Positions 1,260 through 4,962 of a stretch of 13,232 nucleotides of DNA are shown here, in pieces (position 1 is the stretch's first letter; every line of letters starts with the position of its first letter). Below the pieces are notes generated by a model, which saw nothing but the letters and a program-made list of their open reading frames with translations, searched no databases and was not told where the DNA came from. This stretch comes from Magnetococcales bacterium (GTDB taxonomy: Bacteria > Pseudomonadota > Magnetococcia > Magnetococcales > DC0425bin3): assembly GCA_015229045.1 (NCBI GenBank), contig JADGCJ010000089.1, forward strand, positions 1 through 13,232, written 5' to 3'. The position numbers and the translations under genes were made by a program.

Positions 1260-2678
1260 ATGGATAAGTTCCGTTCCGCCTGGGTACGCAACCGTACTGG
1301 CAACGTTACCCAGATGCATTTCGCCCGGCAAGGGGAGATCACACCCGAAATGGCCCATGTGGCCCGGGAGGAGTCCCTGACCCCCGAACTGGTGCGCGAT
1401 GAAGTGGCACGGGGCCGCATGGTGATCCCGGCCAACATCAACCACCCGGAGCTGCGTCCGGTGGCCATCGGCATCAAATCGCGCTGCAAGATAAATGCCA
1501 ATATCGGCAATTCACAAATCTCCTCCGGCCTGGACGAAGAGCTGGAAAAGCTTGATCTTTCGGTGCGTTATGGTGCCGACACCGTGATGGATCTCTCCAC
1601 CGGCAAGCATATCCCCCGCATCCGCGAATCGATCCTGCGCCACGCCGAGGTCCCCATCGGCACCGTGCCCATCTACGAGGTGGTGGAGCGGGTGCCCGAT
1701 GTGCGTCATCTCACCCCGGAGATGATCCTGGCGGTGATCGAGGAGCAGGCCCGGCAGGGGGTGGATTACATGACGGTGCATTGCGGGGTTCTTCTGCATG
1801 TCCTGCCGATGATCGAATCGCGCATCACCAAGATTGTGTCACGCGGCGGGGCGCTCATGGCGCAATGGATGCTCCACCACGAGGCGGAAAACCCGCTCTA
1901 CACCCATTTTGACCAGTTGCTGGAGATTTGCAAACGCTACGATGTCACCCTCTCCCTGGGGGATGGCATGCGTCCGGGATGTCTGCACGACGCCTCGGAT
2001 GCCGCCCAGTTTGCCGAGTTGAAGGTGCTGGGCGAGTTGACGACCCGCGCCTGGAAGCAGGATGTGCAGGTGATGATCGAGGGTCCGGGCCATGTCCCCA
2101 TGGACCAGATCGAGATGAACATGGAGCGGGAGCGCCAGGAGTGTCACGAAGCGCCGTTTTATGTCCTGGGGCCTCTGGTGACGGATGTTGCCGCCGGTTA
2201 TGACCATATTGCCTCGGCCATCGGCGGGGCGATTGCCGCCTGGAAGGGGGCATCGATGCTTTGTTATGTCACCCCCAAGGAGCATCTGGGGCTGCCGCAT
2301 GCCGAGGATGTGCGCAACGGCATCATCGCCTACAAGATTGCCGCCCATGCCGCCGACATTGCCCGCAAGCGTCCCGGAGTGCGTGATCGCGACGATGCCA
2401 TGAGTCGTGCCCGTTACGCCTTCGACTGGAACCGCCAGTTCGAGCTGGCCCTCGACCCCGAACGCGCCCGCAGCTACCACGATGAAACCCTGCCGGAAGC
2501 GGCGCATAAAAATGCCGAGTTTTGTTCCATGTGTGGTCCGCGTTTTTGTGCCTACAAGCTGTCGCAGGAGGTGACGACCAAATCGCGTGATCTGGCTGCC
2601 CGGCTCATTCCTCAGCACTGCCCGGAGACCTCTGCCCCGGCGTCGATGCCCTTGCGACAGGCAGCGAGCGGCGGGTGA
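1260..2678 (+). CDS. thiC: Phosphomethylpyrimidine synthase ThiC
   Basis: ThiC converts aminoimidazole ribotide to hydroxymethylpyrimidine phosphate, the pyrimidine half of thiamine, by a non-canonical radical-SAM reaction in the cytoplasm. From ATG 1260 the protein has 472 aa, the short form typical of cyanobacterial-type ThiC and lacking the N-terminal domain of the E. coli enzyme. Family motifs appear in order: TQMHFARQG near the start, [48 protein letters not shown] and DETLP. The C-terminal CX2CX4C cluster motif (CSMCGPRFC) is intact, with ligands C422, C425 and C430. The 1260 start has the better ribosome binding site and fits where homology begins; 1173 (501 aa) is the alternative. The stop overlaps the GTG of the next gene. 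I see no TPP riboswitch upstream. Confidence 0.97.
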
Positions 2679-3724
2679 GTTTTTCGTCTTTGCCGGCCAT
2701 TCCCCTGGCGTGGGCGGACCTGACCCGGGAGGATGAACAGGCGGTCTGTGCCGCCCTGGCCCGCAACCCCTGGTTTGACGCCGAACTGCTCATGCGATGG
2801 GAGCAGGCGTGGTCGGTATTGTGGGAGCGCCCGGCGGTGGCGTTTGCCGATCCGGTCGAGTTGATCGCCGCCTTGAAGAGTCGTTTGCAGTGGCCATCGG
2901 GTTCTGGCATCGCCGCCGATGCCCTGCTTGAACCAGTCTGGCGGGAGGCCTGTGCAGCCTCCTGGCTGCATCTCATCTGGCACGATGTCGATCCCCGGAC
3001 CGGCCTGATCGCCGAGCGGGGATCCAACCTGGTCCCTGTGGGATCAGGTCCGGTGCAGGCGGGGTTCTGGCGACATGGTTTTGGCCAGCCGACCCGTCCT
3101 TCGGTGGCTTGGGAGCCTCCCCCTTTTCTCATGGAGGAGATTTCCAGCGTCGTGGTGCCGCTGCCCGGATGTGGCTGGGGGGGAGTGCAGCTGGTCCATT
3201 TTGATGGCAACGGCATCCTGCCGGGGGGTGTGGGGTCTCTTCTGTTGAGCAACAACGCGGCTCTGGTGGAGGATTTGCGCCGCCTGCGTCGCCACCCTCC
3301 GGGGAGTGCGGCGTGTGCCTTGGGGCTTTCCCTGTTGTCGCGCCTGGATCTTGTTCTCGCCCGGCGGCAGCATCTGGCAGCGCGTTATCTGGCCATGGTG
3401 CCCCGGAATCTTTTTCAACTGCCCCTCTCTGCTGTCCATGAGCGCGGGTGGGGAGGTTTTTTTTTGGCTATGGACGACCCGGCGTATCGGGAGGAGTTGC
3501 AGGCGTTTCTCGCCCGGTCAGGCATCGATGCCGCCGCGCCGGTCTGGTACCAGCCCGACCCCTCAGCCGGGCAGCTCCCGGGAGTGCGTCGATTTTTGGC
3601 TTGTGCGCTGGCCATTCCCTTTTATCCGGCTTTGGCGGAGGGCGCTCAGAAACGGGTCATCAATCGGATTCATCGCTGGGTGGGACGGAAAGATGCTGAG
3701 AAAAAAATAGGCGATCATGCGTGA
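2675..3724 (+). CDS. DegT/DnrJ/EryC1/StrS aminotransferase-fold protein lacking the PLP lysine
   Basis: This 349-aa protein follows the layout of sugar aminotransferases of the DegT family, but its active site is degraded. Recognisable landmarks are the N-terminal [13 protein letters not shown] and WE segment, HDVDPRTG (103-110), the loop [16 protein letters not shown] (175-190), [21 protein letters not shown] (218-238) and the tail [19 protein letters not shown] (311-329). The 175-190 loop aligns without gaps to the family's S-F/Y-N-G-N-K-I-I-T-T loop, with glycine 180 where the PLP-binding lysine should be. No lysine occurs at all between residues 69 and 325. The cofactor-binding E-D-A-A segment reads MEEISS (153-158), and the SSGTAAL loop reads [15 protein letters not shown] start overlaps the thiC stop, implying translational coupling. 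Function is unknown; a catalytic aminotransferase role is unlikely. A T9 run (3457-3465) lies inside the gene. Confidence 0.8.
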
Positions 3725-3736
3725 TCTGCATTTCAC

Positions 3737-3742
3737 GGAGGA
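3737..3742 (+). promoter_or_regulatory. Shine-Dalgarno deciding the 3751 start
   Basis: GGAGGA lies 8 nt before ATG 3751. It supports this start over the in-frame GTG at 3721, which overlaps the upstream gene and would add ten residues unlike the family. Confidence 0.7.
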
Positions 3743-3750
3743 ATACCAGG

Positions 3751-4962
3751 ATGGACTCTTGCGCATTGGGTGGCCTCGACCTGCCCGCCTTTGCCACACA
3801 AAAAGGCACCCCCTTCTCCATCCACGACGGCCCGGCCCTGACCACCCGCCTCCAGGAGCTGCGCACCGCCCTGGAGGGCAATCTCTCTCTCTGCGGCGCG
3901 GTCAGGTCGTATCCCAACCCGCACCTGCTGCGCTGGATGTTGCCTCACCTGGACGGCTGCATCGTGCGATCGGGAGTGGAGCTGCGCCTGGCCGTCTCGG
4001 TGGGATACCATCCGCAGCGGATGGACTTCATCGGTCCCGGCAAACGCGACGGAGAGCTGGAGCTGGCCATCGGCAGCGGTCTTGCGTCCATCAGCCTGGA
4101 GTCGGAAGGGGAACTGGAACGCATCGATCACGTTGGCCACCGTCTGGGGCGCAAGGCCCCCGTGATGGTGCGCCTCCAACTCCCCCGCTCCACCATGGAC
4201 GAGGAGTCGCAACCAGACTGTTTCGGTTTTGACCAGGGGGAAGCCCTGACGCTGATCACCACGTTGGCCGGCAAAACCGGCTGCCGCTACGCAGGACTCT
4301 TTTTCGGCCTCGATGCCGCCATCTTGCAGGGGGATGGCTTGCAGGACTCTCTGCGCCGTGCCCTGGCAACGACGAGCGATCTGGCCCGGTCGCTGGGACA
4401 GTGGCCCAGACGCCTCCTCCTGGCCGCTCACGACCTGTCGGCTACCAGATCGAACAGCGGAGAGGCGTTGGATCTCTCCGCAATCTATCGGGAGATATCC
4501 TCCCTGTGGCTGGCCTTCAAGTCGGAACACAACCCGCCAACAATCGATCTCGTCCTGGAAATGGGTCCCTCTTCAGGCAGCCGAACAACACTCCACGTCA
4601 CCCGGGTGGTCGCCATCAAACAAACCCGGTACCAGGAGATTGGCTGCATCCTGGATGGTCACGTACCAGCCAGTATTCCCCCGGGTGGTGCGATCAATCT
4701 CTCCAGGCCGGATGAAAAAGAGTTGCTTCCGCTACACCTGACCGGCCTGTGCAGCGCGTCGTCGGATGGCCCGACCCGGACCATGCTCCCCCTGCCGCAG
4801 GTGGGGGATTGTATCGGCATTTTTCAGGATGGCGCCTATACAGGTCAGACAACGGCACTGTTTTCCCACCCGACCCACGCGGAGTATCTGGTTGACGGGC
4901 CGGATCACGTCAAAACCGTGCGTCACGTCGTCGATCCGTCGCGTCTGGGGGTTCCTCCGTAG
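3751..4962 (+). CDS. Group IV (DAP/ornithine) decarboxylase-like protein lacking the PLP lysine
   Basis: This 403-aa protein has the two-part layout of LysA-like decarboxylases: an alanine-racemase-type barrel then a beta domain. Family landmarks are TPFSIHDGPAL (20-30), GPGKRDGELELAI (95-107), ESEGELERI (117-125), TRVVAIK (284-290), LC (333-334) and GDCIGIFQDGAY (352-363, with the conserved GAY). The PLP-lysine motif, normally Y-A-V-K-A-N-P, reads G-A-V-R-S-Y-P here, so arginine 52 replaces lysine. The His of the HVGSQ strand is lost (FFGLD, 184-188), the glycine-rich loop is absent (LLLAAHDLS, 222-230), and EPGR has become EMGP (270-273). Decarboxylase activity is therefore unlikely. The gene starts 26 nt after the upstream aminotransferase-like gene. 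Together they look like a co-transcribed pseudoenzyme pair of unknown role. Confidence 0.8.
   Translation: MDSCALGGLDLPAFATQKGTPFSIHDGPALTTRLQELRTALEGNLSLCGAVRSYPNPHLLRWMLPHLDGCIVRSGVELRLAVSVGYHPQRMDFIGPGKRDGELELAIGSGLASISLESEGELERIDHVGHRLGRKAPVMVRLQLPRSTMDEESQPDCFGFDQGEALTLITTLAGKTGCRYAGLFFGLDAAILQGDGLQDSLRRALATTSDLARSLGQWPRRLLLAAHDLSATRSNSGEALDLSAIYREISSLWLAFKSEHNPPTIDLVLEMGPSSGSRTTLHVTRVVAIKQTRYQEIGCILDGHVPASIPPGGAINLSRPDEKELLPLHLTGLCSASSDGPTRTMLPLPQVGDCIGIFQDGAYTGQTTALFSHPTHAEYLVDGPDHVKTVRHVVDPSRLGVPP

Follow-up and report, generated by a model that had tools for sequence, protein, structure and literature searches.

Pseudoenzymes with a fold of the pyridoxal 5′-phosphate (PLP)-dependent enzymes and a known role are, to our knowledge, few, and the best-known of them are eukaryotic. 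In the literature on serine palmitoyltransferase the LCB1 subunit is described as lacking the PLP lysine (PMC3794620), and the antizyme inhibitor is described as an ornithine decarboxylase homologue that binds antizyme (PMC3084279). In the DegT fold, the 3-dehydratases ColD and E1 are reported to carry His in place of the lysine and to depend on pyridoxamine 5′-phosphate (PMP) (PMC8987622). Here, we analyzed a stretch of 13,232 nucleotides from a Magnetococcales bacterium (contig JADGCJ010000089.1 of assembly GCA_015229045.1, positions 1 to 13,232; the window in the following), in which thiC is followed by two genes for PLP-fold proteins without the catalytic lysine, gene A of fold-type I and gene B of fold-type III (Table 1). 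A preliminary description of the locus had interpreted both genes as a two-protein unit that is transcribed together with thiC and uses the old scaffolds for binding. We prefer a different reading and assign it a probability of about 0.62, namely that A serves as a non-catalytic binding protein specific to its lineage, and that B is a PLP decarboxylase which degenerated separately and more recently and landed behind A.

The closest described relatives of A are the sugar aminotransferases of the DegT/DnrJ/EryC1/StrS family, for instance TlmJ, PseC, GDP-perosamine synthase and ArnB. The Pfam model PF01041 matches A with 25.7 bits (cut-off 19.8), the match spanning only the C-terminal residues 213-332, and the predicted fold of the window protein is intact (pLDDT 92), so that A is a DegT-type protein by both fold and Pfam match. 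To compare single residues, 39 near-full-length A proteins were aligned with 16 canonical DegT proteins. The Schiff-base lysine is present in 16/16 canonical rows, whereas window A has Gly180 at this position and the A rows are distributed over Arg (14), Gly (9), Gln (6), Ala (6), Lys (1), His (1) and other residues (2). The phosphate motif (S/G/C)T, in full SGT or SCT, is replaced by ADPV in the window, and its Thr is found in 14 of the 16 canonical versus 3 of the 39 A rows. In addition, the segment around NYRxxD, which we take to be the cross-subunit active-site loop, comprises 10 residues in window A versus 25-73 in the 16 canonical rows; by another measure this region spans only 16-18 residues in each of the 41 A rows (17 in the window). 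Lysine, phosphate motif and cross-subunit loop are missing across the A family, the fold is retained in the prediction for the window protein and the protein is kept by selection. We infer that A would no longer bind PLP covalently and would not catalyze transamination.

The most strongly constrained parts of A lie outside the old active site. Mean conservation in 37 rows is 0.67 in the helix of residues 322-337 (322-348 in the model), 0.66 in the strand 311-320 and 0.65 in residues 9-16, with 0.47 as the overall value. F57, K326, N330, R331, R334 and W335 are invariant in 39/39 A rows, the latter five forming the C-terminal motif K...NR..RW, and W50, W73 and W89 are each found in 38/39 rows. 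Even A proteins with an identity down to 34% to window A still share the invariant residues. Furthermore, dN/dS is 0.11-0.35 in nine chosen pairs of A genes; neutral decay leads to a value of about 1. We assume that A acts as a non-catalytic and probably dimeric binding protein, with a putative contact surface that includes the C-terminal helix carrying K...NR..RW.

A profile built from four A proteins detected A in 40 out of 48 Magnetococcia genomes (E 2.1e-35 or better), including G038, which consists of a single 4.72-Mb contig; the A genes in G017 and G036 are partial only. With a 38-protein profile, 398 genomes of the phylum were searched, scoring at most five candidates per genome. Here, 40 genomes yielded more than 100 bits, all of them Magnetococcia, and two further genomes matched at 82 and 76 bits. 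Among the matches listed when a large protein database was searched with the 38-protein profile, five are A proteins, including the one of the window, and the other 16 carry the lysine; close relatives of A bear the name DegT/DnrJ/EryC1/StrS family aminotransferase in this database. The 39 near-full-length A proteins group as a single clade (100/100) in a tree that includes three outgroups, although the long row L103 meets the outgroup. A is one lineage-specific, Magnetococcia-wide family and apparently undescribed; no publication on the proteins of gene A or gene B was found in the open-licence literature, searched by titles and the starts of abstracts. It is likely that this DegT-fold pseudoenzyme arose once in or before Magnetococcia and was kept thereafter.

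We also analyzed the gene neighborhood of A in 41 loci, which are those of the 40 class genomes and the window (L098 and L104 start too close to A for reading upstream). thiC is located upstream of A on the same strand in 17/41 loci, in 15 of them directly (gap under 600 nt) and farther off in L070 and L073, and the gap is as small as -1 nt in L066 and 2 nt in L067. Downstream on the same strand ligA is found in 17/41 loci, in 12 of them within 150 nt, and both genes flank A in 7/41. A PNPOx-like gene (PF01243) lies upstream of A in another recurrent arrangement of seven loci (L068, L071, L075, L076, L093, L096 and L097) at a distance of 25-79 nt, or 576 nt in L097, and A precedes ligA in these loci. 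Mapping the thiC label onto the A tree requires 6 changes versus 13.6 in shuffles, a pattern that fits an old thiC-A-ligA order which has been lost many times; we can only infer the age of this order, as the deep forks of the A tree are unresolved. thiC itself is present in 42/48 genomes. It occurs without A in G004, G011, G030 and G047, and A occurs without thiC in G017 and G036; the fetched surroundings of thiC in G004, G011 and G047 contain no A. Therefore, as far as the assemblies show, neither gene needs the other. As thiC precedes A in 15/41 and ligA follows in 17/41 loci, the thiamine link of A is probably old but loose. The gene probably once resided in a thiC-A-ligA neighborhood and would be co-expressed with thiC where this order is kept, as the overlap of both genes suggests for the window, without being tied to thiamine synthesis. 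The link to vitamin B6 or thiamine metabolites considered in the preliminary description is one of gene neighborhood only.

An obvious question is whether A still cooperates with an active enzyme of its own fold. By analogy to LCB1 and LCB2 in serine palmitoyltransferase, A could be the regulatory subunit of an active DegT aminotransferase, and this is possible because strong PF01041 matches are present in 48/48 class genomes (2-16 each, E up to 1e-20). The retained fold of A might have preserved the dimer surface too, and human LCB1 is described as a precedent for a protein that has no lysine and yet is part of a heterodimer (PMC3794620). However, the loop that would complete the site of the partner is missing in 41/41 A rows, and a canonical DegT gene is found in only one of the 41 fetched A stretches, 6.7 kb away (L102). 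We regard such a subunit role as unlikely.

Gene B is a fold-III decarboxylase-like protein with the N-terminal barrel domain. It matches the PLP-barrel domain PF02784 with 38.4 bits (cut-off 23.4) and its fold is predicted to be intact (pLDDT 86). The C-terminal sheet domain PF00278 was not reported for B, but for the lysine-bearing Magnetococcia homologue L108, and the nearest NCBIfam model, TIGR03099, gave 129.2 bits without reaching its cut-off of 478.45. The catalytic lysine of the AxKANP motif is replaced by Arg in the window (AVRSYP for AVKANP) and by Gly in the four other B proteins with a known N-terminal half, L105 (= P0003), L106, P0004 and P0005. The damage extends to GxH, GGGF, ExGR, GGxHH, CTxxD and GAY, presumably the cofactor and substrate motifs: none of the five B rows retains the His of GxH, the GGGF loop, the Arg of ExGR or either His of GGxHH, and CTxxD is altered in all of them. 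The surviving residues are the Cys of CTxxD (window and L106), the Asp of this motif (L106) and, in the window, L105 and P0004, the Glu of ExGR together with the Tyr of GAY. Three pairs from three DNA sequences gave a dN/dS of 0.29-0.31.

In contrast to A, the lysine-less form of B is restricted to very few genomes. A B profile matched in 44/48 class genomes. In 41 of these 44 the best match per genome, leaving out second matches, has a normal lysine motif; therefore, those are LysA or BtrK/exosortase-type decarboxylases. Lysine-less B was detected only in the close relatives G004, G005 and G006. The copy in G004 is a C-terminal piece that is cut by the contig start and does not include the lysine region, but it equals P0005 in 91/91 residues, and P0005 has Gly at this position. 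Six Magnetococcia homologues (L107-L109 and L111-L113) keep the lysine. In a tree with 13 outside rows the lysine-less B proteins, including P0004 (named DMHC-1), group as a single clade (100/100). Its stem is long (1.9 changes per site), and it joins the lysine-bearing decarboxylases of Magnetococcia weakly (85/84). This suggests that the catalytic residues disappeared from a PLP decarboxylase within one set of closely related genomes, in an event that would be separate from and younger than the origin of A. For the protein that remained, a role as a protein-binding relic similar to the antizyme inhibitor is a guess by analogy.

These data allow us to re-evaluate the proposed two-protein unit. 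Much of what had been read from the window holds: direct reading confirmed that the thiC stop overlaps the start of A and that B follows 26 nt downstream, the frames of A and B are open and evolve under constraint, the lysine is lost in both a fold-I and a fold-III protein, and the scaffolds of both are intact in the predictions. The position of A behind thiC also recurs in several lineages. Likewise, orthologues do not retain the catalytic lysine, which is present in one of 39 A proteins and replaced by Gly in the four other B proteins with a known N-terminal half. The short distance on one strand, the overlap of A with thiC and the occurrence of both genes in the two genomes nearest to the window in the A tree, G005 and G006, would all fit one unit co-transcribed with thiC. 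However, one partner is often missing: A is found in 40/48 class genomes and lysine-less B in 3/48, and 38 of the 40 genomes with A have no lysine-less B. Conversely, G004 has B, and A was found there neither near thiC nor elsewhere by profile search. Moreover, neither G005 nor G006 has A and B on one contig, and the neighbors of B are unrelated. In G005 it lies behind two chemoreceptor genes and in G006 behind a TPR/PEGA gene, with a phosphoribosyltransferase gene as a further neighbor, and no conserved neighbor of B is common to both genomes. The contigs listed for the A and B proteins named DMHC-1 also differ (longest 18,948 versus 152,686). The neighborhood check in relatives thus showed no A-B adjacency in G005 and G006, and B would stand directly behind A in the window genome alone, as far as this could be checked (in the G004 species a contig end cuts off the upstream neighbor of B). 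A two-protein unit is very unlikely on these grounds. Since B is a younger, separate case and adjacent to A, as far as seen, in this genome alone, they are most likely not a functional pair, and their pairing is probably an accident of this genome. The pair as such is not the undescribed system for which it had been proposed as the best candidate. Retention of the scaffolds for binding, in the sense of PLP binding, is also unlikely for both proteins because most cofactor contacts are gone.

Several observations weigh against the reading of A as a kept non-catalytic binding protein and of B as a separate and younger case. A was not found in 8/48 genomes, where G004 gave only a weak match of another sort and the other seven gave none. 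Neither thiC nor ligA is near A in 14/41 loci, and no common theme was recognised among the neighbors of these loci, only some of which are annotated. For the G004 species, a contig end hides the A-B neighborhood. At the residue level, L080 (G012) is the sole A protein of 39 with Lys in the old catalytic column, and the column of the pyridine-nitrogen acid, Asp in 16/16 canonical rows, still holds an acid in 33/39 A rows (Glu 18, Asp 15, other 6). Mean conservation reaches 0.58 around this acid and 0.51 in the former lysine loop; neither value falls below the average of 0.47, so that some constraint still acts on the old site. Finally, a stop was flagged in three A matches, that of G033 in the class and the phylum search and those of G029 and G038 in the latter, although the frames used for the analysis are open.

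The flagged stops, together with the loss of catalytic residues in both proteins, could indicate ordinary decay, with A and B as pseudogenes in progress. We consider this hardly credible in view of the open frames, of dN/dS values well below 1 (for B from three DNA sequences only) and of the residues that stay invariant among A proteins as distant as 34% identity. Survival of the acid in 33/39 rows makes a sensor role of A possible. The vacated site might still accept a small aromatic compound without a covalent bond, such as a pyrimidine or pyridine from thiamine or B6 metabolism, which A would sense or carry. W89 would suit such a function, as a profile alignment places it opposite a Trp of ArnB, which we assume to be a ring-stacking residue. 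However, the multiple alignment places W89 opposite Thr or Ser in 14/16 canonical rows, and since the two alignments disagree, W89 is only a possible case of a kept ring-stacking residue. The neighborhood is similarly divided: thiC (17/41) and the PNPOx-like gene (7/41) accompany A in many loci, but neither of them is near A in 17/41. In addition, the phosphate motif is lost, and no TPP riboswitch was detected before thiC in the window (E up to 1). Of the 16 thiC-linked A loci outside the window, 13 were searched (all but L066, L083 and L094), and none of them has one at gathering score. Altogether, a ligand-binding role of this kind appears quite improbable. A more far-reaching version, in which A would be a class-defining sensor, retained throughout the history of the class, that recognizes an aromatic metabolite of the thiamine or B6 type in its vacant pocket and addresses ThiC or some housekeeping partner via the K...NR..RW helix, is a long shot.

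Table 1. Coordinates of thiC, genes A and B and the sites discussed in the text (positions in the window).
Feature	Position	Strand	Evidence
thiC, phosphomethylpyrimidine synthase	1260..2678	+	PF01964 (ThiC_Rad_SAM) 649 bits; NCBIfam thiC models 678-704 bits
Gene A, fold-I DegT-like, without PLP lysine, phosphate motif and cross-subunit loop; Magnetococcia-wide family	2675..3724	+	
GTGA, thiC stop overlapping the GTG start of A; possible translational coupling	2675..2678	+	direct reading
A residues 179-181 (N-G-I), Gly180 at the position of the canonical DegT Schiff-base lysine	3209..3217	+	
A residues 322-337, C-terminal helix with K326, N330, R331, R334 and W335	3638..3685	+	each residue in 39/39 rows
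Gene B, fold-III decarboxylase-like, without PLP lysine; close relatives only	3751..4962	+	

The thiC gene of the window shows 93-94% identity to those of G004, G005 and G006. Its ATG is at 1260, where the thiC alignments of the relatives begin, and the reading frame is open upstream from 1128. B starts with ATG at 3751, 26 nt past the end of A (3724); a consensus scan of this gap gave no terminator-like site, but such scans prove little. Between B and gatC lies a repeated element (5041-5166, about 126 bp) that ends in 16-bp terminal inverted repeats, which has at least 40 matches in G004 (up to 96% identity), two weak ones in G006 and none in six other genomes, and which is MITE- or REP-like. 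Farther downstream, a protein encoded at 11445-13097 on the minus strand combines, according to Pfam, a HycI-type hydrogenase maturation protease domain with the C-terminal Kae1-like domains of HypF, and the Pfam scan reported no N-terminal HypF domains for it. The 726-aa protein of 9268-11448, which we take to be spermidine-synthase-like, is hydrophobic in its N-terminal part and matches methyltransferase models of Pfam only weakly in its C-terminal part. In several Magnetococcia genomes a canonical DegT gene and a LysA-type gene are no more than about 2 kb apart (e.g., G038 contig 1, 4694073-4697433; G005, C116; G006, C83), and these neighbors would be an active fold-I/fold-III pair.

The locus illustrates that a striking gene pair of one genome can dissolve once relatives are compared. 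A remains as a tractable case of the reuse of an enzyme fold, in which the cofactor site is lost, most genomes of a class keep the protein and a sharp invariant motif is present, and the family corrects the annotation of relatives that are named as DegT aminotransferases. Compared with these aminotransferases, A has no lysine, no (S/G/C)T phosphate motif and no cross-subunit loop, and carries its own W-rich and K...NR..RW signatures. B is closest to BtrK, diaminopimelate decarboxylase and the exosortase-A-type PLP decarboxylases, but is without their Lys, His, Gly-loop, Arg and HH motifs. The antizyme inhibitor and LCB1 both use a PLP fold for protein binding, as we propose for A and might guess for B. 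The antizyme inhibitor has no enzyme activity. ColD and E1 resemble A in having a DegT fold without the lysine. However, they are described as keeping PMP and a catalytic His, whereas His is found in 1/39 A rows, not in that of the window, and the phosphate motif of A is lost. Hence, lysine-less proteins of the DegT fold and PLP folds kept as partners are already known from these reports; A differs from them, as far as its sequence tells, in the broader loss of cofactor contacts and in its retention across a bacterial class.

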